Shown: positions 1 through 16,994 of the stretch, in pieces | How the letters are laid out: every line of letters starts with the position of its first letter | Position numbering within the stretch: position 1 is the first letter of the stretch | DNA from: Paracoccaceae bacterium | Lineage (GTDB): Bacteria > Pseudomonadota > Alphaproteobacteria > Rhodobacterales > Rhodobacteraceae | Length of the DNA stretch: 17,251 nucleotides | Direction of reading: 5' to 3' | Assembly: GCA_002401945.1 (NCBI GenBank) | Contig: NVUP01000014.1 | Location: 93,160 to 110,410, forward strand | Position numbers and translations under genes: made by a program | The notes under the pieces: generated by a model | Told to the model about the DNA's origin: nothing | Databases searched by the model: none | The model's input: only the letters and a program-made list of their open reading frames with translations

Positions 1-346
1 CTTTGAAGAAGAAGAAGCTCGACTCGTCGTATTCCCCAGCCAGAATCTCATCGGCGCGGCGGCGGAACCCTACCGCTGTAGGTGAATGTTCCCATTCCGG
101 ATTGAACGGCAACCAGTCGTCCCAGGCCGATCCCGCCGAAGCCAGTATCTCATTGTTCAGTTTATTGAGAGGGGCCGATTCAAAATATCCCTTGGGGTTG
201 GCACCTTCCCCACCAATGGCGCGGCGCGGCATATCACAGCCCAGCAGGTTCAGCAGCCCACCCAGGGCCGACGTTCCCGACCGATGCATCCCCAGAATCA
301 CAAGGCATGTTCTGGCGGGGGTTTTCTTCGATTTGGGAGAGGGCAT
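1..346 (-). CDS. Sulfotransferase-like P-loop protein, N-terminal part (cut by window edge)
   Basis: The first 115 codons of a gene that continues past the left edge. The protein opens with a basic stretch and then a beta strand and P-loop-like motif, VILGMHRSGTSAL (residues about 16-28), which in sulfotransferases binds the 5'-phosphosulfate of PAPS. It is followed by NPKGYFES and a WDDW stretch, typical of the bacterial sulfotransferase group that starts GMHRSGTS. The 3'-phosphate-binding half lies outside the window, so activity cannot be judged. The ATG at 346 is the first start after an in-frame TAA; the ribosome site before it is weak (GGACAC). It lies 54 bases after the stop of the large glycosyltransferase gene on the same strand and is probably the next gene of that operon, which fits glycan sulfation. 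A related P-loop kinase or hydrolase is a less likely alternative. Confidence 0.8.
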   Translation of the reverse strand, partial: MPSPKSKKTPARTCLVILGMHRSGTSALGGLLNLLGCDMPRRAIGGEGANPKGYFESAPLNKLNNEILASAGSAWDDWLPFNPEWEHSPTAVGFRRRADEILAGEYDESSFFFFK

Positions 347-400: not shown

Positions 401-6060
<5,660 letters not shown>

Positions 6061-6129: not shown

Positions 6130-7044
6130 TCAGCTGTCTCTGCGATAGCCCAGAGTTTCGGCATAGGGAAAGGTCACCTCTTCCGCCATCGCATGCAAGT
6201 GAGCATTTTTTGAGTGCTTCCAGCCCTCGGCCGGAGTGATGACAATGTCGGTACGACGCTCTTTCAGCACCGTGGCATTGGCTGGTGGGAACAGATGCGT
6301 GTCCAGCCAGGAGATATCAGCCGTGTTGCGGCTGGTGAACAGCGACAGATCTGGCGTCAATCCGGCCCAGTCCTGGATTGCCTCAATCCAATGCCGAGGC
6401 CGCTCGGTCAGATCCTCATAACGCAGCCGCATGAACCGGTGCGGGTTCAGATCACGGATCACCTGCAACCGCCGTTGCCGCCCGGCCCAGTTGCGGGTCC
6501 GGCCGCGCAACACAGCCGGGCGCTTCAGCACCTTGGCCCAGCTGACAGCCACTGCGCGCGGGTCACGCACCAGATTCAACACATGCAAATCGATTTCCGG
6601 GATCAGACTAAGCGCCAGGCACAGGTCCACTGATTTGGAACTGTCAACCAGCAGCCGCCCCCCCGCCTGCGCGGCCGCCGCAATATAGAGATCGCGGAAA
6701 GCCTCAAGAAAAACGGCGTGATCCTGGGTCAATGCCTTGCGGACTGCAAGCTCGCCCCAGCGGGGATCCGCGTTGGCCGCCTTGCGGAACAGCTGCATCC
6801 CCTCGGTCAGCGCCTGCAAGGCTCCGGCGCCATGCAGCTTTTCGACCTGTGCCACCACGGCACCCCAATAAGAACAGCTTGGCACCGGTTGATCACAGCT
6901 GCAAATTTCCTGCTCCAGCAGGGCCAGCGGCAGGTCACGAATCTGGCCAATATTATAGACCTGCGCATGTTGTGACAGCATCAACGACAGGAAGGTTGTC
7001 CCCGACCGACCAGCCCCAGCAATATAAAGAACCTTAGTAAGCAA
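6130..7044 (-). CDS. Sulfotransferase (PAPS-dependent family)
   Basis: A 304-residue protein of the sulfotransferase family, expected to move sulfate from PAPS to a hydroxyl of a glycan. The 5'-phosphosulfate loop AGAGRSGTT is at residues 9-17, and the 3'-phosphate site VRDPRAVAVSW begins at 159. A cysteine cluster of the form C-x-C-x5-C-x2-W near residue 50 is typical of one bacterial subgroup. No signal peptide or membrane segment is seen. The start is taken as TTG at 7044 because GGAGGG lies 5 bases upstream; a TTG at 7056 would place that ribosome site inside the gene. It is the first gene of a leftward operon with glf and the large glycosyltransferase, and it diverges from the adenylation/carrier/SGNH gene. 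The acceptor is unknown; the context suggests the exported polysaccharide. Confidence 0.88.
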   Translation of the reverse strand: MLTKVLYIAGAGRSGTTFLSLMLSQHAQVYNIGQIRDLPLALLEQEICSCDQPVPSCSYWGAVVAQVEKLHGAGALQALTEGMQLFRKAANADPRWGELAVRKALTQDHAVFLEAFRDLYIAAAAQAGGRLLVDSSKSVDLCLALSLIPEIDLHVLNLVRDPRAVAVSWAKVLKRPAVLRGRTRNWAGRQRRLQVIRDLNPHRFMRLRYEDLTERPRHWIEAIQDWAGLTPDLSLFTSRNTADISWLDTHLFPPANATVLKERRTDIVITPAEGWKHSKNAHLHAMAEEVTFPYAETLGYRRDS

Positions 7045-7049
7045 TCGTC

Positions 7050-7055
7050 CCTCCA
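7050..7055 (-). promoter_or_regulatory. Ribosome binding site that sets the sulfotransferase start
   Basis: GGAGGG on the minus strand, 5 bases before the TTG at 7044. It argues for that TTG over the in-frame TTG at 7056. Confidence 0.6.
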
Positions 7056-7068
7056 ATATCGTAATTCA

Positions 7069-7158: not shown

Positions 7159-9957
7159 ATGTTTTTTACGGCTGGCCAGGTACTTGACATGAAAGACCTT
7201 TTCCCATCTCCGATCGCGTCAAAGCGCTGGCGCGCCAGCGATGACTTCCTTCGGTCTGTCGCAAGATGGCCGGATCGCCCAGCCATCACCGTTGCCGGTC
7301 GCAGCTATTCCTACAGCGACCTCAACACCCATGTCCAAGCGCTCGCCGCAGCCATCGCTGATTGCGAAAACAGCAGCGATGCTCCCGTGGCCGCAATCTA
7401 TGCCAACCGGAGCCTGGAGACCTATGTCGCGGTCCTCGCCGCCGGGATGCGGGGCTATGCCTATGTGCCGCTAAATTCAAAATTCCCCGCCGAGCGCAAT
7501 CGCTATATCCTCGACCGCTCCGGGGCCTCGGTGCTGATCTTTGATCAAAACAGCGGCGCAGCCGTTGCGGATATTCTGACCAGTGACAGCGATGCTCCCA
7601 CAGCCCCGCTCCCCCATCAGATCCTGAGCAGCAACGTGCCGACATCGACCCGCCGGGATCTCCCGCGTCTGCATGACAACCCTTATGCCTATGTGTTGTT
7701 CACCTCGGGCAGCACCGGCCAGCCCAAGGGTGTCGCCATTCGACACAGCAATCTGGAGGCTTATCTGCAGGCGACCTTTGCGGTCACCGATTATAATCAC
7801 CAAGACCGAATGTCGCAAAATTTTGACCTCACCTTCGATCTCAGTGCCCACGACATGTTTGTCTGCTGGCGCGCCGGAGGCCATCTGATCGTGCCTTCCG
7901 CCGCCGATCTGGAACGCCCCGCCGACTATCTGCACAGCCATAACATCACCTGCTGGTTCTCGGTGCCCAGCCTGGCGCAGAAAATGCGCCTGCAGGGCGC
8001 GGTGCAGCCTGGATCCCTGAGCAATCTGCGTCTGACGCTGTTCTGCGGCGAGGCCCTGCCGGTCGATCTGGCACAGGACTGGGCCCGCGCCACCGGTCAA
8101 AGGGTGGAAAACTGGTATGGCCCAACCGAGGCCACCATTGCCTGCACCCGCTACCAGCTGCCTGCGGATCCGGAACAGATCCAAGGTCGGTTCAACCTGG
8201 TGCCCATTGGCATCCCGCTGCCCGGTGTGCAGACTCTGGTGCTGAAAGAGGATGGCAGCCCTGCTGCTGCCGGAGACAGCGGTGAATTGCTGGTCACCGG
8301 ACCGCAGGTGGCGGATGGCTATGTCGGCGACGCCGATAAGACCGCCAAAGCCTTTGTGCTGCCAACCGGGCGAAGCGCAATTCACTACCGCACCGGCGAT
8401 CGGGTCGAAACGGAAGAGGATGGCAACCTGCAGTTCATCGACCGTATCGACAATCAGATCAAGATCCGCGGCTACCGGGTTGAGCTGGGTGAGATCGAAG
8501 CAGTGCTGCGCAGCCACGCCGCAGGCTGCAATGCGGTGGTGGTTGCGCTGCCATTGAAATCCGCCATACCCACCAGCCTGGTCGGCGTGGTCGAAGGCTG
8601 GGAGGGCCCCGGCCGCCAGCTCAAACAGGCCATCGAAGGTCACCTGCCGGACTACATGACCCCCTCGCGGGTTCTGGTAATGAAACACTTCCCAAAAAAC
8701 GCCAGCGGCAAGGTTGATCGCGGTGCCATTGGCCAGCGGGTTGTCAGCCGGCTGGAAAAAATGCACGCAGCGGCCACCCCAAAGAAAAAATTCAAACGTC
8801 AGGATCGGCTGGTTCAATTCATACAGCAGATCAACCCGGCCATCGCCCGCCAGGATATCGAGCGGGCAGAAAACCTGATGGATGCTGGCCTCGATTCGAT
8901 GGGGTTTGTCGACTTCACCATTCGGCTGGAGAACCATTTTGACCTGTCCCTGACCCAGGAAACTGTGTCAGAGCTGTCGCAGATGTCCCTGACCCAGATG
9001 GTGGGGTTTCTGCGACGGGCGCTAGAGCCCAAAGGCGCCGACCGGTTCCAGCCGCCCACCACCGGCACATTGTCCTCTCCCAAACTGAAACGTCACCTGC
9101 ATTACCGGGCCATGCGGGCGCTGGATATGCTCGATAAATTCCCTGACTTTGCCAAGACCACCACCGATCCAATGGTGCTGTGCATCGGCTCTTCCGGGTT
9201 TATGCGCGGGATCTGCCCGGCCACCATCGAAGCCACCGCCCAGCAGGCGGGTCACCGGGTCCGGGCCGGCAATCTCGGCATGGCCATGCTCAGTGTCGAC
9301 GGCATCACCGAAGTCTGCGAGTTCCTCCGCAGCACGATGCAGGATCTGGACCGCCGCATTGATCATGCGGTGATCGAGATGGAGATCATGCAATTGAGCA
9401 TTCTCCCCCCCGCCGGCGACATCGAGATCATGGAGGCCTTCAAGGCCGGCGCCTTCCGGGATGTCCCGCGTAAATATTATGATGCCGATACCATCTGGGA
9501 GGCTGACAGCGGCGGTGCCATCGCGGCCTCGGAAACGCCGGAGGCCGTGGTTAGCCAGGCCAATTGGGAACGCAATCGGAACCGCGAAATCCGCGATGCC
9601 TTTGACGGTCAGATCAAGATGGACAGTCGCGCCGTCGCCAGTTGGATCCGCGGCGTCAAGGCGCTGCAGCAGGTGAGCAACCATGTGACTGCAGTGATCC
9701 ACCCGATCCAGAGCAGCGGAGCAAAAGCCGCCCCAGCCCAACACGGCCCCAACCATGTCCGCGATCTGATTGCACAAGTCACCCGCGAAACCGGGGTCGA
9801 GATACGGTTGGATACCGACTTTGACATGGCCGATGAAGATTTCAAGAATATCAGCCACATGAATGATCATCGTGGCCGCCAGACCTTTTCGGCGCAAATC
9901 ACCCGCCACCTTTTCAAGTTCAAGCCTGACACGGCAGGACACACCGGAGAACATTGA
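7159..9957 (+). CDS. Adenylation domain - carrier protein - SGNH domain fusion (DltA/DltC/DltD-like order)
   Basis: A 932-residue protein with three domains and no signal peptide. Residues about 30-520 are an amino-acid adenylation domain: TSGSTGQPKG near 181, FDLSAHD with Asp227 at the position that binds the substrate amino group, FCGEALP, NWYGPTEAT from 318, YRTGD from 410, IKIRGYRVELGE from 434 and NASGK with the catalytic Lys518. It reads more like DltA (D-alanine activation) than like a typical NRPS module. Residues about 545-625 are a carrier domain with the phosphopantetheine serine in GLDSM (Ser580). Residues about 660-932 resemble an SGNH esterase/acyltransferase: GSSGFMRG (Ser678 or Ser679), NLGMA, and HMN with His900; the usual aspartate three residues before the histidine is Asn897. 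The domain order matches dltA-dltC-dltD with no DltB. The start is set by GGGAG at 7147-7151. The stop shares a base with the next ATG. It probably activates an amino acid and passes it to a sugar, but substrate and acceptor are inferred. Confidence 0.88.
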   Translation: MFFTAGQVLDMKDLFPSPIASKRWRASDDFLRSVARWPDRPAITVAGRSYSYSDLNTHVQALAAAIADCENSSDAPVAAIYANRSLETYVAVLAAGMRGYAYVPLNSKFPAERNRYILDRSGASVLIFDQNSGAAVADILTSDSDAPTAPLPHQILSSNVPTSTRRDLPRLHDNPYAYVLFTSGSTGQPKGVAIRHSNLEAYLQATFAVTDYNHQDRMSQNFDLTFDLSAHDMFVCWRAGGHLIVPSAADLERPADYLHSHNITCWFSVPSLAQKMRLQGAVQPGSLSNLRLTLFCGEALPVDLAQDWARATGQRVENWYGPTEATIACTRYQLPADPEQIQGRFNLVPIGIPLPGVQTLVLKEDGSPAAAGDSGELLVTGPQVADGYVGDADKTAKAFVLPTGRSAIHYRTGDRVETEEDGNLQFIDRIDNQIKIRGYRVELGEIEAVLRSHAAGCNAVVVALPLKSAIPTSLVGVVEGWEGPGRQLKQAIEGHLPDYMTPSRVLVMKHFPKNASGKVDRGAIGQRVVSRLEKMHAAATPKKKFKRQDRLVQFIQQINPAIARQDIERAENLMDAGLDSMGFVDFTIRLENHFDLSLTQETVSELSQMSLTQMVGFLRRALEPKGADRFQPPTTGTLSSPKLKRHLHYRAMRALDMLDKFPDFAKTTTDPMVLCIGSSGFMRGICPATIEATAQQAGHRVRAGNLGMAMLSVDGITEVCEFLRSTMQDLDRRIDHAVIEMEIMQLSILPPAGDIEIMEAFKAGAFRDVPRKYYDADTIWEADSGGAIAASETPEAVVSQANWERNRNREIRDAFDGQIKMDSRAVASWIRGVKALQQVSNHVTAVIHPIQSSGAKAAPAQHGPNHVRDLIAQVTRETGVEIRLDTDFDMADEDFKNISHMNDHRGRQTFSAQITRHLFKFKPDTAGHTGEH
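9946..9949 (+). promoter_or_regulatory. Ribosome binding site inside the 3' end of the fusion gene
   Basis: GGAG, 7 bases before the ATG at 9957. It lies within the last codons of the upstream gene, so the two genes are probably translated in a coupled way. Confidence 0.6.
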
Positions 9958-10928
9958 TGACTCACCCCCCCAGCTTTCTGATCTGTTCAGAGCGTTCTGG
10001 CTCAAACCTGATCAGCACAATCATGGGCACCCATTCCCAAATCTATGCGCCACCACCGCTTCACTTTGGCCAAGTTGTCTTTAAAAATCTGCATGAAACC
10101 CTCCCCCGTGGCACCCGTTCGCGGGCATGGGAAAAGCTCCAGGCCCAGGCCACAAGACGGGTCCGAAAACTGGCCGGTCCGGAGGAGGCCCAAATCCTGC
10201 AGGATTGGTTGGCCACCCGCAACACAGTTGATCCCGAGGAACTGATCCGGTTCCTCTATCTTCAGGTCCCTTCCGAGGCCACAAACAAGCGAGTCTTTAT
10301 AAAAGAGAACAACCTTCACCAGTTGCTGTTCTTCATTCTTAACTGTTTTCCGGATGCCAAATTTGTCTTCCAGGTCCGCGACCCGCGGGACTTTCTAGCT
10401 TCGGCCAGGGCCGCCACGGCAGCTCCACACGGCAATAAATTCGGCTCCGATCGTGGCGCCCTCAGGGTTTGGGAGCAAGATCAGAGAACCGGCCTGCAGG
10501 CCCTTGCCCTGTTGGGGGCAGACCGCGTTTTTCTGCACCGATATGAGGATCTCCTGATCGATTCCGAAGCCGTGGTGCGGCGGATCTGCAGCTTTCTCGG
10601 CGTGGATTTCGAACCTGAAATGCTGGAGTTTCACAAGACTGAAAAAGCCAGCCAACTGGCAGACAGCCACAAGCAGCGTCAAAACATCAACAAGCCACTT
10701 ATGGAAAATAATTTTGCCAAATACCGAAAGGCCCTGACCCAGGCTGATATCCGAATGGTGGAACGGCCCCTGGGCCGCCTGATGCACACCTTCGGCTATC
10801 CCCTGGATCTGATCCTCCTGGGCAAGGGGGCCAAGAAGAGCCGGCGCAAAACCTCTGCCGAACAGTCCAGCTTCCAACGCAGGCCCCTGTTGCCACCGCT
10901 GGACTATGGCCCCTCGCCTTTCTTCTGA
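9957..10928 (+). CDS. Sulfotransferase (PAPS-dependent family)
   Basis: A 323-residue sulfotransferase-family protein. The 5'-phosphosulfate loop is CSERSGSNL (residues 10-18), in the variant form ERSGSN found in Stf0-like and related bacterial enzymes. The 3'-phosphate site is VRDPRDFLASARA, beginning at residue 140. A later segment, LHRYEDLL, is also common in the family. The C-terminal 60 residues are basic. The start ATG overlaps the preceding stop (TGATG) and has GGAG 7 bases upstream, so it is tightly coupled to the adenylation/carrier/SGNH gene and likely acts on the same glycan or intermediate. A run of seven C at 9965-9971 covers codons 3-5. The acceptor is not evident from sequence. 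Confidence 0.88.
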   Translation: MTHPPSFLICSERSGSNLISTIMGTHSQIYAPPPLHFGQVVFKNLHETLPRGTRSRAWEKLQAQATRRVRKLAGPEEAQILQDWLATRNTVDPEELIRFLYLQVPSEATNKRVFIKENNLHQLLFFILNCFPDAKFVFQVRDPRDFLASARAATAAPHGNKFGSDRGALRVWEQDQRTGLQALALLGADRVFLHRYEDLLIDSEAVVRRICSFLGVDFEPEMLEFHKTEKASQLADSHKQRQNINKPLMENNFAKYRKALTQADIRMVERPLGRLMHTFGYPLDLILLGKGAKKSRRKTSAEQSSFQRRPLLPPLDYGPSPFF

Positions 10929-12158: not shown

Positions 12159-13991
12159 TCACACAGCAACCTTTTGCGCCGCGCGGGATGGCTCTGCCAT
12201 CTCCAACTTGTCCCGCCAATAGGTCTCGCTGGTCAGTCGGCCATAGTCACCCCGATACTGCATCGCCAATGTCTCATAACATTTAAAAAACCGCAGGCCA
12301 TTGCGCAGGAACCGGCCACAGAGCTGCACCGCCCGCCACTTGTCATGACAGACGGTATAGGCCTTGGTTTCCTCGGCATTCAACACCGTGATCTGTGCCG
12401 CCCCCCACACATATCCGATATGGCCACGGTGTTTTGCCCGCAGGGTGATCTTGCGGCCCAGACGGCCATAAAATGGGATCAGCAATCCGTTTAGTGTCAG
12501 CTTCATCAGCAGCCGCCCGCCCCAACTCAGCGGAGTTTTGCGGATCGGTGGCAACCCATGGGTGGAGTCTATATTCTGCCAGGTCTCGCTCTTGGTCAGC
12601 GCCTTCAAATCAGCGCGCCGCTGCGCCATATCAGCGTTTTGATCAAAAAATTCAGGGCCTTGCATCACATCTTCCAAAGCCAAGTTGACCGCCGCCATAG
12701 TGTCGTAATGCATCCGTGGCAGGTTGCGCAGCATAAACCAGGCCGCTATTTTTAGCACCCGCAGCCGCCCCATATCCAACGCTGGCAGGCTCAAGTGATG
12801 CGCCATATGACTGCGCAGGTCCAAATACCAAGTCTGCGGGCTTTCCTTTTCAGTAAAGCTCTCCTGGAACGATACAACGCCGTTTAGGGTGACAATGTTA
12901 AAATCGTTGGCCAGCGAGAAACTGACATCATCCCCCCGGACAAAAAACGGAAAGGCCAGATGCTCGGCCCGTTCCAGCGGAAAGGCAAAATACCACCAGC
13001 CACCATAGAAATTCCACGGCACCGGGCGGCAGGCTGAGGCTTCCATGTCGATCACTTCGTCAACATCCCTCAGGTCGGTGCCCATATGCAACGGCTGGCA
13101 TCCGCCATGAAACAACGCGCCGTTTTCCCAGATTGCCCAGCGGTGCTGCTCACCAATCATCGCACCAGCCACCGCCGTGCCCGGATCCGTTGCATAGGCC
13201 AAAAACTGATAGGTGCGTTCCAGGCTGTCCATATGGATCGAGGCATCATCATCCATGAACAGGCAATGGCTGGCGCCGCGCCCGCGCGCCTCCAGCAACC
13301 CGCGGGTAAAACCGCCAGCCCCGCCCAGGTTGGCATTTGGAATGATGCTGACATGGTCATTGGCTGTCGTTTCAACCGACTGGCCATTGTCGACCACAAC
13401 CATATGCAGATGGTCCTGCATCCAGGACTGGGCGGCAAAGGCGCTGAACCGCGCCATGGTCCGCGCCACTTCGGCCTCCCGCCTGAAGGTGGTCACTGCC
13501 AGCACCAAATCGGGGCTGCGCCGCGGCGCCTGCCTGGTCTGCCAGCTGGCATTGAGCAACGCTCCCTGTCCCAGCGCCCGTAGTTCGAAAAACAACTGCC
13601 CCGGATCATACGGCGGCTGCAGCACATGGCTCAGCTCCAACCGCAGCTGACCGTTTTCCGGAAAGGTAACAATGTCACTAACCACCCGGTCCCAGGATTT
13701 TCCCCGCGATGCCAGAAACACCGACAGCTCAAACTCGCCAGCGCCCTCCAGCAACAGAGACAGATCTTCCAGCCCGCATTCCCGAACCCATTTCTCCCCG
13801 TTGAACAGATTGAACCAGGTGCTAAAGGCGACCAGACCACCGCTGGCAAAGCGCACCCGCCTGCCTCGATCCGATACCGCAACCGGGCCTTTGCTGCGCA
13901 GATACAGATCCCGTTCTGTGCAAATGCCGGACTCGGGCCACATCAGAGATTGCAGGCTATAGAAGCTTGGTAGGTCAGAATGATCAGTCAA
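12159..13991 (-). CDS. GlfT2-like galactofuranosyltransferase (GT2)
   Basis: A 610-residue protein with the two-part layout of mycobacterial GlfT2: an N-terminal beta-rich domain (about 1-170), then a GT-A domain and an alpha-helical C-terminus. Landmarks are VVVDNGQ, NANLGGAGGF, the metal-binding FMDDDAS with DDD at 247-249 (256-258 in GlfT2), FYGGWWYFAFP, RGDDVSF with Asp354-355, and a histidine-rich SHMAHH. It should transfer galactofuranose from UDP-Galf at the inner face of the membrane; Glf is encoded at 4882-6039. The start is chosen as TTG at 13991, preceded by GGAGG with a 7-base gap. An ATG at 14039, one base after the kpsT stop, would add 16 residues but has no clear ribosome site. 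Linkage type and whether it polymerises or only adds single residues cannot be seen. Confidence 0.88.
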   Translation of the reverse strand: MTDHSDLPSFYSLQSLMWPESGICTERDLYLRSKGPVAVSDRGRRVRFASGGLVAFSTWFNLFNGEKWVRECGLEDLSLLLEGAGEFELSVFLASRGKSWDRVVSDIVTFPENGQLRLELSHVLQPPYDPGQLFFELRALGQGALLNASWQTRQAPRRSPDLVLAVTTFRREAEVARTMARFSAFAAQSWMQDHLHMVVVDNGQSVETTANDHVSIIPNANLGGAGGFTRGLLEARGRGASHCLFMDDDASIHMDSLERTYQFLAYATDPGTAVAGAMIGEQHRWAIWENGALFHGGCQPLHMGTDLRDVDEVIDMEASACRPVPWNFYGGWWYFAFPLERAEHLAFPFFVRGDDVSFSLANDFNIVTLNGVVSFQESFTEKESPQTWYLDLRSHMAHHLSLPALDMGRLRVLKIAAWFMLRNLPRMHYDTMAAVNLALEDVMQGPEFFDQNADMAQRRADLKALTKSETWQNIDSTHGLPPIRKTPLSWGGRLLMKLTLNGLLIPFYGRLGRKITLRAKHRGHIGYVWGAAQITVLNAEETKAYTVCHDKWRAVQLCGRFLRNGLRFFKCYETLAMQYRGDYGRLTSETYWRDKLEMAEPSRAAQKVAV

Positions 13992-13998
13992 TGGGTGG

Positions 13999-14003
13999 CC
14001 TCC
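13999..14003 (-). promoter_or_regulatory. Ribosome binding site favouring the TTG start of the GlfT2-like gene
   Basis: GGAGG on the minus strand, 7 bases before TTG at 13991. The competing ATG at 14039 lacks such a site. Confidence 0.5.
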
Positions 14004-14040
14004 AAGTCCGCCTCTCTTTAGTCTTCCGTCGCCGCACATT

Positions 14041-14694
14041 TCAACTCATCATTTCCTGATGCAGGGCAATGGCTTCTTCAAGGTCCTCAAAATACTGCAT
14101 TCTGCCATGCTCCAGCACGATGCCGGCATTACAGAATTTGCGCACCTGCCCCATTGAGTGATTGACCATGATGGCACTGGACTGCTGCATCCGATCGGCA
14201 AACAGGATCCGGCTTTTGCGCTTGAACTGGGCATCTCCCACTGCGGTCACCTCATCAACCAAGTAGGTGTCAAACCGGATCCCCATTGAGGCGCCAAAGG
14301 TCAACCGCGAGCGCATGCCCGATGAATAGCTGCGCATGGGCATATGGTAAAATTTACCCAGCTCGGCAAACCCATCGACAAAGGCCACCAGCTCATCGGT
14401 ATCGACACCATAGATCCGGGCGATAAATCGCACATTTTCGGCGCCACTCAGGTCCTTGTGAAACGACGCCCCCAGCCCCACCGGCCAAGAGATGCTGCCA
14501 TCGCTAACCACCCGCCCATGATCCGGGCGCATGGTGCCCGCGATGATTTTAAGCAGGGTTGATTTCCCAGCGCCGTTGCGCCCCAACAGCGCCAGAGATT
14601 TCCCGGTGGGCAAGGTCAGGTTCAGATTATCGATGACGATCTTGCGCTCGCCCTCCAGCCAGAAGCTTTTGGTCAGGTTCTCAAAACGGATCAT
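14041..14694 (-). CDS. kpsT: Capsule polysaccharide ABC exporter, ATP-binding protein (KpsT-like)
   Basis: A 217-residue ATPase of an ABC-2 polysaccharide exporter. Walker A is GRNGAGKST (residues 38-46), the signature is YSSGMRSRLTFG, Walker B is YLVDEVTAVGD and the switch histidine is in NHSM. The start at 14694 (MIRFENLTKSF) gives the usual KpsT length; a start further upstream would lie inside kpsE. It begins 5 bases after the kpsE stop and ends one base before the first possible start of the GlfT2-like gene, so the three form one operon. Its membrane partner is the divergent kpsM-like gene at 16173. It powers export of a lipid-linked glycan across the inner membrane. Confidence 0.94.
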   Translation of the reverse strand: MIRFENLTKSFWLEGERKIVIDNLNLTLPTGKSLALLGRNGAGKSTLLKIIAGTMRPDHGRVVSDGSISWPVGLGASFHKDLSGAENVRFIARIYGVDTDELVAFVDGFAELGKFYHMPMRSYSSGMRSRLTFGASMGIRFDTYLVDEVTAVGDAQFKRKSRILFADRMQQSSAIMVNHSMGQVRKFCNAGIVLEHGRMQYFEDLEEAIALHQEMMS

Positions 14695-14699
14695 AGGGC

Positions 14700-16082
14700 T
14701 CAACTGCGGTCCCGGATTGAATAATAAATCAGCGACAGGATAGACCAACCCAGCAACAGGAACAGCCCGGCCAGCCCGGCCAGAATAAACCGCTGCGGGT
14801 ACTGCGAATCTTCCGCCTGGGTTGGCTTGATATAGGTGGCCAGATAGCGGCTTTGGCGCACCGCATCGTCGCGTGCCACTTCCAGCGCAGTCAAGGCCGC
14901 ACGATAAGACGTCTCGGCATATTCCAGATCCACAGTCAGCCGCTCAAATTCGGAAATCAGCGACGGGTAATCCTCGCCCACAGCCCCGGTCTCGGTACTG
15001 GCTGAAGTAAAGGTCTGACGTTCTATATCGATACGGTCGCGGATCACGTCAATGCGCTGGCGGGCCGTTTTCAGCCGTGGATCCCCCTCGCTGACGCTGC
15101 CGCGCAGCAGGTCAAAGTCGATCAGTGCTTCAGCCAGTTGCTGCTGCAGATTGTTCATCACCCCCATGCGGCCCTGAATGTCGGCGTTTGGATCGACAAT
15201 ACGGGTGCGGGTGCGGAATTGGGTCAGCGCCTCGCGGGCGGCCTTCAGCCGTTCGATCGCCTCGTCCAGATCGGCCTGAGCATATCCCATCGCATCCTCG
15301 CGGGCACGGGCGTTCAGAACATTGATGCGAGTCTGGCTCTCGGCGACAATCTCGCGCGTGATGGCCTGCGCCATCACCGCATCAAACGCCACCGCCTGCA
15401 CTTCAATCAGCCCAGAAGAGCCATCATAAGAAATGCTAACCACTCGCTGCCAGTACCAGACCAGATCTTCAAGACTGGCATCCGGCCACAGCGAAAAAGC
15501 CCAGTCATCCGGCCAGCGTTGCGCATAATGCGCCTTCAGGCCCAATCGCGCATCAACCACTTTGGCCATTTCCTGGCTTTGGATGAACTCATAGAGAATA
15601 TCGCTGTCCGAAGCTGCGTTGCCACCGGCAAATTGTGCCAACCCGCCCAGCAGATCATTGGCGCTGCTGCTTTCTTGGCTGCGCACAGTAAACCCGGTGG
15701 TGGAGATATACTGATCCCCAGCCACGGTCCACAGATACAAAACCACCGCCACCAGCGGCGCCAGCACCAGCAGAAGGAAACTGGCCAGCAGCCCCACATG
15801 CCGCTTTTTCATCCGCGCCGGACGGGCGACCGGTGGCAATTGCAGGGCCGCCAGCTCTGGGGCAGCCAAGGCTTTGGCCGCCGCTCGTCTTTTTTTGCGC
15901 CGCTGTTTATTACCTTTGCCACGGCCCTTGCCTCTCCCGCCCCCTGGCACCAACAGTTGCACATTGCTTTGTGGGTCGGGTTCAATGACCTCGTTGCCGA
16001 CAACTTCGGTTTGCACAGCGGGTGCAGCCGGATCATCCGGCAAGGACCGTTTCGGGTCGGGAGAAGAATTACCCTGCTTCAT
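14700..16082 (-). CDS. kpsE: Capsule export inner-membrane protein (KpsE/BexC-like)
   Basis: A 460-residue polysaccharide co-polymerase-type protein that links the ABC exporter to the outer-membrane channel through the periplasm. A cytoplasmic tail of about 90 residues contains a strongly basic Gly/Arg/Lys stretch (about 50-66). Transmembrane segments lie at about 95-121 and 431-453. Between them is a periplasmic domain with GDQYISTTGFTVRS after the first segment and long coiled-coil stretches (about 240-420). The layout and length match KpsE, BexC and CtrB, apart from the longer basic tail. The ATG at 16082 is used here; a TTG three codons upstream (16091) has a slightly better placed AGG and may be the true start. 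It opens the leftward export operon and diverges from kpsM. Confidence 0.9.
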   Translation of the reverse strand: MKQGNSSPDPKRSLPDDPAAPAVQTEVVGNEVIEPDPQSNVQLLVPGGGRGKGRGKGNKQRRKKRRAAAKALAAPELAALQLPPVARPARMKKRHVGLLASFLLLVLAPLVAVVLYLWTVAGDQYISTTGFTVRSQESSSANDLLGGLAQFAGGNAASDSDILYEFIQSQEMAKVVDARLGLKAHYAQRWPDDWAFSLWPDASLEDLVWYWQRVVSISYDGSSGLIEVQAVAFDAVMAQAITREIVAESQTRINVLNARAREDAMGYAQADLDEAIERLKAAREALTQFRTRTRIVDPNADIQGRMGVMNNLQQQLAEALIDFDLLRGSVSEGDPRLKTARQRIDVIRDRIDIERQTFTSASTETGAVGEDYPSLISEFERLTVDLEYAETSYRAALTALEVARDDAVRQSRYLATYIKPTQAEDSQYPQRFILAGLAGLFLLLGWSILSLIYYSIRDRS

Positions 16083-16172
16083 ATCGGTCAATCTCGGCCT
16101 ACATCCGTTTGTAATTGGCTTTAGTTGCTGCCATAGTATGGCTTGCTAACGTCTGCATCACAATGGGCTTTC
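16083..16172. promoter_or_regulatory. Divergent intergenic region between kpsE-like and kpsM-like genes
   Basis: A 90-base region that must hold start signals for both directions. A weak plus-strand candidate is TTGTAA (16109-16114) with TAGTAT (16134-16139), but the 19-base spacing is poor. No clear operator repeat is seen. Confidence 0.3.
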
Positions 16173-16994
16173 ATGGTCAGCATTCCTCCCGCGGCAGCGC
16201 CTGCCCAACGTCCAAAACCCGTCGGCAAACGTCGTTTTGCCACCCTGCGCACCATCTTCGCTCTGGTGCTGCGCGAGATGTCCACACGTTACGGGCGCAC
16301 CCCCGGAGGCTACCTCTGGGGTGTCCTGGAACCCCTGGCCACCGTCATATTTCTCAGCCTTGGGTTTTCACTGGTTCTGCGCTCCCCCTCTCTGGGCACC
16401 AGCTTTTTGCTGTTCTACGCGACCGGCTATTTGCCGTTCAATTTCTACCAGGTGCTGTCCGGCTCCATCGCCTCAGCTCTGAGCTTTTCCAAACCACTGC
16501 TGAAATACCCCGCCGTGACCTGGCTGGATGCGGTGATGGCACGGTTTTTGCTCAACAGCCTGACCAACATTCTAATCGCGGCCCTGCTGTTTACCGGCAT
16601 CCTGGCGGCCATCGGCAACCGCTCGGCTCTGGATCTGCCAGCAATTGTTCTGGCCATTGGCCTGGCGATGATTTTTGGCTTGGCAGTGGGGGTCCTCAAC
16701 TGCGTGCTGATGGGGCTTTATCCAGTATGGAAAATGACCTGGGGCATCGTCACCCGGCCGCTATTTCTAGCCTCGGGGGTGCTTTTTCTCTACGATGACC
16801 TACCACCGATGGCACAGCAGGTACTGTGGTATAATCCACTGATCCATATCACCGGGTTGACGCGCACCGGATTCTTTTCCACCTACAACCCCGCCTACAT
16901 CAGCGTCATCTATGTTCTGGTTGTCAGCCTAATAGTGCTCACCCTGGGGCTGGTGCTGATGGGCCGCTATCACCGGGTCATTCTGAACCGCTAA
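16173..16994 (+). CDS. kpsM: Capsule polysaccharide ABC exporter, permease (KpsM-like)
   Basis: A 273-residue ABC-2 type permease. After a basic cytoplasmic tail come REMSTRYGRTPGGYLWGVLEP (residues 34-54), the typical KpsM interface helix and first membrane entry, and then about six hydrophobic segments (about 52-72, 78-100, 125-150, 155-184, 189-208, 243-267). It forms the exporter with the KpsT-like ATPase. The ATG at 16173 is preferred; a TTG at 16143 would add ten residues, and neither has a strong ribosome site. The gene is transcribed away from kpsE-kpsT, unlike the classical kpsMT operon. Its last 17 bases overlap the end of a convergent glycosyltransferase gene. Confidence 0.93.
   Translation: MVSIPPAAAPAQRPKPVGKRRFATLRTIFALVLREMSTRYGRTPGGYLWGVLEPLATVIFLSLGFSLVLRSPSLGTSFLLFYATGYLPFNFYQVLSGSIASALSFSKPLLKYPAVTWLDAVMARFLLNSLTNILIAALLFTGILAAIGNRSALDLPAIVLAIGLAMIFGLAVGVLNCVLMGLYPVWKMTWGIVTRPLFLASGVLFLYDDLPPMAQQVLWYNPLIHITGLTRTGFFSTYNPAYISVIYVLVVSLIVLTLGLVLMGRYHRVILNR

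Follow-up and report, generated by a model that had tools for sequence, protein, structure and literature searches.

A single-chain adenylation-carrier-SGNH protein that recurs with two sulfotransferases in distantly related bacteria

How an amino acid could be passed from a carrier to an acceptor by a single protein inside the cell is the question raised by one gene in a 17,251-nucleotide stretch of DNA from Paracoccaceae bacterium (GCA_002401945.1, contig NVUP01000014.1, positions 93,160 to 110,410; the whole stretch is called the window here). The gene encodes a protein in which an adenylation (A) domain, a carrier (T) domain and an SGNH domain follow one another, referred to below as A-T-SGNH. 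According to the available portion of PMC12148441, D-alanine in the Dlt pathway goes from a carrier by way of DltB and DltX to a serine of DltD. The SGNH acyltransferases of envelope polymers are described, in the available portions of sources that include PMC12148441, as receiving their acyl groups from MBOAT or AT3 membrane partners and acting outside the cytoplasmic membrane, and DltD, PatB and OatA as modifying such polymers through O-acyl transfer. An earlier reading made from the window's letters (the sequence-only reading) had seen DltA-, DltC- and DltD-like domains fused in order, among capsule genes. We found that the specific conserved partners of A-T-SGNH are two sulfotransferases of the 3'-phosphoadenosine 5'-phosphosulfate (PAPS) type, ST1 and ST2, and not capsule genes in general. 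A-T-SGNH is best modeled as an MBOAT-free variant of the carrier-dependent aminoacylation systems that follow the Dlt/Alm logic. That it travels with its own sulfotransferases through distant bacteria suggests that some molecule of the cell is modified internally in a manner not yet described.

Architecture, distribution and fold

The order adenylation, carrier, SGNH in one chain of 932 amino acids (aa) was confirmed. The protein scored 348.8 bits against the NCBIfam amino acid adenylation model TIGR01733 (cut-off 317.4) and 29.3 bits against the Pfam carrier family PF00550 (cut-off 20.8); with these matches for the A and T domains and a structural model for the third, the domain order given by the sequence-only reading was borne out. 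Neither a signal peptide, whose absence that reading had also noted, nor a transmembrane segment was seen in the protein. The window's own genome gave two matches to phosphopantetheinyl transferases of the ACPS type.

Searching protein databases with the C-terminal region, among candidates of 0.55-1.75 times the query length, returned 19 proteins of 857-932 aa, one of them the window's own. Genome contigs, when scanned, yielded 41 loci; the C-terminal part is present in 35 of them (L009-L042 and L045), and in the other six the match was limited to the A region or was cut by a contig edge. The hosts were Rhodobacteraceae/Roseobacteraceae, Rhodospirillales, Caulobacteraceae, Woeseiaceae, Steroidobacteraceae, Comamonadaceae and other Burkholderiales, other Gammaproteobacteria, and one Verrucomicrobiales metagenome-assembled genome (MAG; L018). 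Two complete plasmids also carry the gene, those of Phaeobacter sp. G2 (69% identity) and Leisingera thetidis (48%). The family is sparse, the SGNH domain occurring in 2 of 289 genomes of a class-wide sample, the window's own counted. The literature searched, whose coverage excluded most subscription journals, described neither an A-T-SGNH protein nor its pairing with sulfotransferases.

The C-terminal part matched no SGNH family in Pfam. When it was modeled (predicted local distance difference test score, pLDDT, 88) and submitted to a Foldseek fold search, the SGNH fold was found and not an unrelated one, which upholds the earlier domain call; DltD was among the good matches, and PatB and Escherichia coli TesA were also matched. 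Among the matches listed, DltD structures gave the longest alignments, 228-236 residues versus 157-194 for the others. PF04914, the DltD family, was absent from the matches of 35 members of the C-terminal domain at E<=1. At least two proteins (search with the domain alone) or at least five (profile search) in the databases hold the C-terminal domain outside A-T-SGNH; five such separate proteins sit on contigs of 1.4-3.6 kb and are probably truncated genes. Since the separate copies are confined to short contigs, the domain seems private to the A-T-SGNH architecture.

We aligned the window protein, the 35 loci, the two plasmid proteins and 18 database proteins (56 rows, some nearly identical). 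The phosphopantetheine serine that the sequence-only reading had noticed in the carrier, Ser580, is kept in all 56, as are Arg653, Ser678, Ser679, Gly707, Glu740, Arg807 and Pro849; His848 is kept in 55 and His900 in 54. By alignment position, Ser679 and His900 correspond to the catalytic serine and histidine of SGNH enzymes.

Predicted substrate and sulfotransferase partners

The specificity residues of the A domain were mapped by our own motif alignment following the PheA scheme, and read DLHFLCWIAK (positions 227, 228, 231, 267, 294, 296, 319, 327, 328 and 518). This code, or DLHFLCWISK with serine at position nine, occurs in 47 of 56 rows. For the 130-residue pocket region the best sequence match in the PDB was AlmE (4oxi, 102 bits), followed by 8k4r (79), 6akd (75), a proline ligase (55) and DltA (53); AlmE in the same alignment reads DLHLFCLIA over nine covered positions, three of which differ from the A-T-SGNH code. 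Linear gramicidin synthase, which had come out as the top PDB match, was set aside because two of its stretches match and their scores add, and because the pocket region alone puts AlmE first. Serine and threonine were considered as substrates, since sulfotransferases need hydroxyls, and were rejected; the serine and threonine codes do not match DLHFLCWIAK. In the available portion of PMC12930378, AlmE loads glycine onto AlmF, from which AlmG moves it to lipid A, and mis-activation of D-alanine by AlmE is possible. Because the pocket is closest to AlmE and AlmE has this biochemistry, glycine or alanine is the most likely predicted substrate. The earlier description of the A domain as DltA-like therefore stands as regards a small-amino-acid pocket, whereas the closest relative is AlmE and not DltA; the DltA-type D-alanine ligase model TIGR01734 gave 272.7 bits, below its cut-off of 559.85.

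Clustering of the neighboring open reading frames (ORFs) showed a sulfotransferase adjoining the A-T-SGNH gene in many loci. Pfam assigned the added N-terminal part of the L034 and L027 proteins to Sulfotransfer_3, and sulfotransferase genes lie directly upstream in L021 and L030, with two sulfotransferase stretches in L021. ST1 and ST2 were located with hidden Markov models (HMMs) built from the two neighbor clusters. ST1 is adjacent in 30 of the 35 loci, in 27 within 1.3 kb and in three as part of a head-to-tail ST1-ST2 fusion gene just upstream that overlaps the A-T-SGNH gene (L037, 8002-10011; L042, 4395-6503; L021, 1167-3206); at L010 it occupies 16037-16942 of contig C102 (genome G535), about 115 bases from A-T-SGNH. 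Five loci have no adjacent ST1: L018 and L039 (gene at contig edge), L025 (whose ST1 is on a different contig), L040 (where it lies some 10.7 kb off) and L011 (ST1 outside the examined flank). ST2 is fused to the N-terminus, giving ST2-A-T-SGNH, in six of the 35 (L025, L027, L032, L034, L035 and L036) and lies no more than 31 bases away in a further 15, of which the L019 copy is a fragment. At L011 an ST2-like ORF is 7.5 kb away, and the strong ST2 of that genome is on another contig. Excluding fused copies, 41 sulfotransferase ORFs were within 1.3 kb and one was beyond, a count that used HMMs from near genes and so speaks for specificity, not independent discovery.

Whole-genome searches were the fairer test, though they relied on the same kind of alignments. 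The 36 genomes searched were those of the 35 loci and of L046, where the contig ends within the gene. ST1 was found in 35 (E<=1e-20), all but the L018 genome, and ST2 in 23 (E<=1e-40). An even sample of the window's family (248 genomes) held the SGNH domain in four genomes, the window's own among them, and ST1 in exactly those four; ST2 was strong in three of the four, and two weaker ST2-like matches fell in other genomes of the sample (G022 and G366). In the family of L045 (107 genomes), eight had a strong SGNH match, seven of which had already been found in the contig scan; ST1 was present in seven of the eight, and in the remaining one the gene lies at a contig edge. The other 99 gave one weak partial ST1 match (G611) and one weak partial SGNH match (G570). 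Like the ST2-like matches of G022 and G366, these come from genomes that lack the module, and they were left uncounted. Pairwise identity of the sulfotransferases tracked that of A-T-SGNH (r 0.93 over 24 rows for ST1, r 0.90 over 21 rows for ST2), and none of 2000 permutations was as high.

Both ST1 and ST2 keep an N-terminal R-x-G-x loop and an invariant RDPR, which we take to be PAPS-binding. The nearest solved relatives of ST2 were 4gox and 4gbm, the olefin synthase and CurM sulfotransferases (E 3e-14 and 6e-13), and these were also the only solved matches of ST1 at E<=1 (E about 2e-4).

Proposed mechanism and competing explanations

A-T-SGNH resembles the Dlt system (DltA, DltC, DltB, DltX and DltD) in having amino acid adenylation, a carrier thioester and an SGNH-fold transferase, and differs in being one polypeptide tied to sulfotransferases. 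The sequence-only reading had seen no MBOAT gene in the window; this extends to the whole of the window's genome (85% complete), where neither MBOAT (DltB-type) nor DltD (PF04914) was matched. With the DltA models below cut-off and PF04914 and MBOAT missing, a plain DltACD fusion was rejected as a classification and kept as a working analogy. AlmEFG, which places glycine on lipid A in Vibrio cholerae, has in AlmE the best sequence match of the pocket region and shares the logic of adenylation enzyme, carrier and transferase (available portion of PMC12930378); in A-T-SGNH, unlike AlmEFG, an SGNH domain replaces AlmG, the parts form a single chain and sulfotransferases are the partners. No AlmG-type acyltransferase was found among the ten window proteins scanned with Pfam, AlmG having been sought in these and not genome-wide. 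PatAB and OatA (MBOAT-SGNH and AT3-SGNH systems) likewise have the SGNH fold with a catalytic serine, and they work together with a membrane partner on the outer side of the cytoplasmic membrane (available portion of PMC12148441), whereas A-T-SGNH is apparently cytoplasmic and has its carrier on board. The Pfam scan of the A-T-SGNH protein, to which the search for PF01757 was confined, gave no AT3 domain.

The explanation that we favor, at just short of an even chance, is a self-contained cytoplasmic chain that transfers a small amino acid to an acceptor also sulfated by the dedicated ST1 and ST2. We infer that the A domain would activate glycine or alanine and load it as a thioester onto the phosphopantetheine arm of its own carrier. 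The SGNH domain would take the aminoacyl group onto Ser679, with His900 as the base, and from there esterify a hydroxyl group on a cytoplasmically made acceptor. The same acceptor would be sulfated with PAPS by ST1 and, in genomes that have it, by ST2. In the window the acceptor would most likely be a sulfated polysaccharide that contains galactofuranose (Galf) and leaves by the ABC exporter, and the capsule is plausible in this role. Because such an acceptor would be finished in the cytoplasm and exported by an ABC transporter, no MBOAT or periplasmic SGNH step would be needed. A chain that itself activates, carries and transfers the amino acid, with carrier and SGNH serine joined, could do without the membrane relay, and this would suit polymers that an ABC transporter exports complete. 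The steady pairing suggests a transferable gene set that places aminoacyl and sulfate groups on one molecule. It would offer a handle on the tuning of charge of a surface polymer or other product in these bacteria, and having all parts in one chain would make it easier to study how the group moves from the carrier to the serine of the SGNH domain.

Several observations weigh against this explanation. Analysis of the loci identified no acceptor, and many sampled loci are not among polysaccharide genes but have housekeeping or unrelated neighbors. The L018 genome had neither an ST1 nor an ST2 match in the whole-genome search, and 13 of the 36 carrier genomes lack a strong ST2. SGNH enzymes usually have Asp three residues before the histidine; at this position before His900, Asn stands in 33 of 56 rows, the window protein included (Asp in 21, Thr in one, a gap in one), so that the SGNH domain might work slowly or catalyze a different reaction. 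Finally, among solved structures ST1 and ST2 are closest to the sulfotransferases of CurM and olefin synthase, which act on carrier-bound substrates, and this would fit sulfation on the carrier.

Such on-carrier sulfation is the foremost competitor, although in itself unlikely. Modeled on the sulfotransferase-thioesterase pair of CurM and olefin synthase, it would have ST2, and perhaps ST1, sulfate an aminoacyl or other group held on the carrier, with the SGNH domain releasing or transferring the sulfated product. The placement of ST2, fused in six loci and almost touching in 15, argues for it, as do those solved relatives. The CurM and olefin synthase modules resemble A-T-SGNH in that a sulfotransferase stands beside, or in one chain with, a carrier and a hydrolase fold of the release type. 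However, the pocket is predicted for glycine or alanine, which offer no hydroxyl to sulfate; a partner so often missing as strong ST2 fits poorly; and solved bacterial sulfotransferases of this family are perhaps so few that CurM is nearest by default. A-T-SGNH also differs in its A domain for a small amino acid and in having no polyketide domains, and its C-terminal domain is SGNH, whereas the CurM-type thioesterase is an alpha/beta-hydrolase. One can go further and imagine ST1, ST2 and A-T-SGNH as a transferable assembly that couples sulfation and aminoacylation on the carrier and hands a sulfated aminoacyl ester to an acceptor inside the cytoplasm; we regard this as a minority possibility; if true, it would add a new class to the known carrier-dependent modification chemistry.

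Next in standing, and likewise doubtful, is a small-molecule or lipid pathway, in which a free sulfated and aminoacylated metabolite or lipid is made, the SGNH domain is a thioesterase or small-acceptor acyltransferase and the plasmids are mere carriers. The unrelated or housekeeping neighbors at many sampled loci, the sparse distribution in the class and the presence of TesA among the structural matches would suit it. However, beyond ST1 and ST2 no transport or tailoring family recurs among the families listed, save in a few related loci, and large polysaccharide clusters enclose the module in the window and in two complete plasmids. Amide-linked amino acids are frequent on bacterial glycans, and the amino acid could go to an amino sugar or similar group in place of a hydroxyl, but this is highly improbable, DltD, PatB and OatA working by O-acyl transfer as far as the available sources go and no amino-sugar family occurring among the recurrent neighbors listed.

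Genomic setting of the module

The features of the window are given in Table 1.

Table 1. Coordinates of the A-T-SGNH gene, its domains and neighboring genes in the window
Feature	Position	Strand	Basis or remark
UDP-galactopyranose mutase (glf)	4882..6039	-	Pfam scan
ST1, sulfotransferase (Sulfotransfer_3), divergent neighbor	6130..7056	-	true start uncertain
A-T-SGNH protein, 932 aa	7159..9957	+	
Adenylation (A) domain, about residues 25-525	7231..8733	+	Pfam PF00501/PF13193; TIGR01733
Carrier (T) domain	8797..9024	+	Pfam PF00550; phosphopantetheine Ser580, codon 8896-8898
SGNH domain	9076..9918	+	structure model, fold search, conservation
SGNH motif residues	Ser679 9193-9195; His900 codon 9856-9858		GSSG with Ser679, Asn705/Gly707, Glu740, His848-Pro849, Asn897-x-x-His900
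ST2, sulfotransferase (Sulfotransfer_3)	9954..10928	+	ATG 9957 overlaps A-T-SGNH stop (TGATG)
Protein without Pfam match; N-terminal HHKVGSTSL reads like a sulfotransferase P-loop	10997..12100	-	own sequence reading
Galactofuranosyltransferase-2-like glycosyltransferase	12159..14039	-	Pfam scan
ABC exporter ATPase	14041..14748	-	Pfam scan
Probable polysaccharide export inner-membrane protein	14700..16091	-	no Pfam match; relative-based
ABC-2 exporter permease	16143..16994	+	Pfam scan

The last 17328 bases of the contig (C38) repeat its first 17328 save for 138 positions, mostly masked N near the ends; because the ends repeat each other, the window reads as part of a circular replicon of 93082 bases. 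This replicon carries RepA, ParAB and a rhamnose operon, and has RepA (83%), ParA (87%), rfbABCD (72-89%), glf (82%) and exporter genes in common with the Phaeobacter sp. G2 plasmid, which we take to resemble the roseobacter RepA-I biofilm plasmids with a rhamnose operon. On the window replicon and on the G2 and L. thetidis plasmids, A-T-SGNH lies inside a large polysaccharide cluster. The probable export inner-membrane protein has a 73%-identical relative, annotated as a sugar transporter, on the Phaeobacter plasmid. Relatives of the protein with the P-loop-like N-terminus occur in L009, L010, L040 and L053. An ORF cut by the window edge (2-346, minus strand) begins GMHRSGTSAL and is probably another sulfotransferase, and a 1494-aa protein (401-4885, minus strand) holds several glycosyltransferase stretches in a single chain.

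The capsule neighbors named by the sequence-only reading are thus real in the window and have counterparts at some related loci, whereas most other sampled loci lack them; its domain order recurs in 35 loci, but a polysaccharide setting is not general. Two Pfam tallies were made of neighboring ORFs of 180-900 aa, with the ST1, ST2 and A-T-SGNH clusters excluded and with a greedy ORF caller that yields some spurious frames. The first took 116 of 122 ORFs from 16 loci outside Rhodobacterales, and its commonest families (25 listed of 128) were headed by an AAA-FHA ATPase (7), peptidase M19 (5) and FG-GAP (4). The second took 105 of 194 ORFs from 15 Rhodobacterales loci and leans away from the window's setting, since it omitted L009, L010, L015, L040 and L054, all but L015 of which resemble that setting; among the 25 commonest of its 92 families only Sulfotransfer_2 reached three members, and the rest were mostly metabolic, regulatory or transport families. 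In both tallies no glycan-synthesis family had three or more members; single glycan genes could lie among the families beyond the 25 listed in each. Individual loci varied. L037 has a family-41 glycosyltransferase and an ABC exporter nearby, and L031 a phosphomannomutase. A further 20 neighbors, scanned protein by protein at L011-L014, L016 and L041, included exosortase EpsH at L011 and an ABC-2 exporter at L013, with regulators, metabolic enzymes, Lon, TGT and a transposase at L012, L014, L016 and L041. Because the tallies and scans vary in this way outside window-like loci, assignment of A-T-SGNH as a capsule gene by context was weakened.

At L018 (187-6952) the A-T-SGNH copy has after it a gene that joins a sulfatase to a glycoside hydrolase family 2 protein. 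In a Caulobacteraceae MAG (L029, 5984-7878) the module adjoins a gene with an LptA/LptD_N domain and a gene that clusters with the window's ABC ATPase, a setting that could hint at a lipopolysaccharide-related acceptor in that MAG. In three Woeseiaceae MAGs (L020, L028 and L045), a peptidase M19 gene and a gene for a 370-aa protein without a Pfam match recur upstream of the module.

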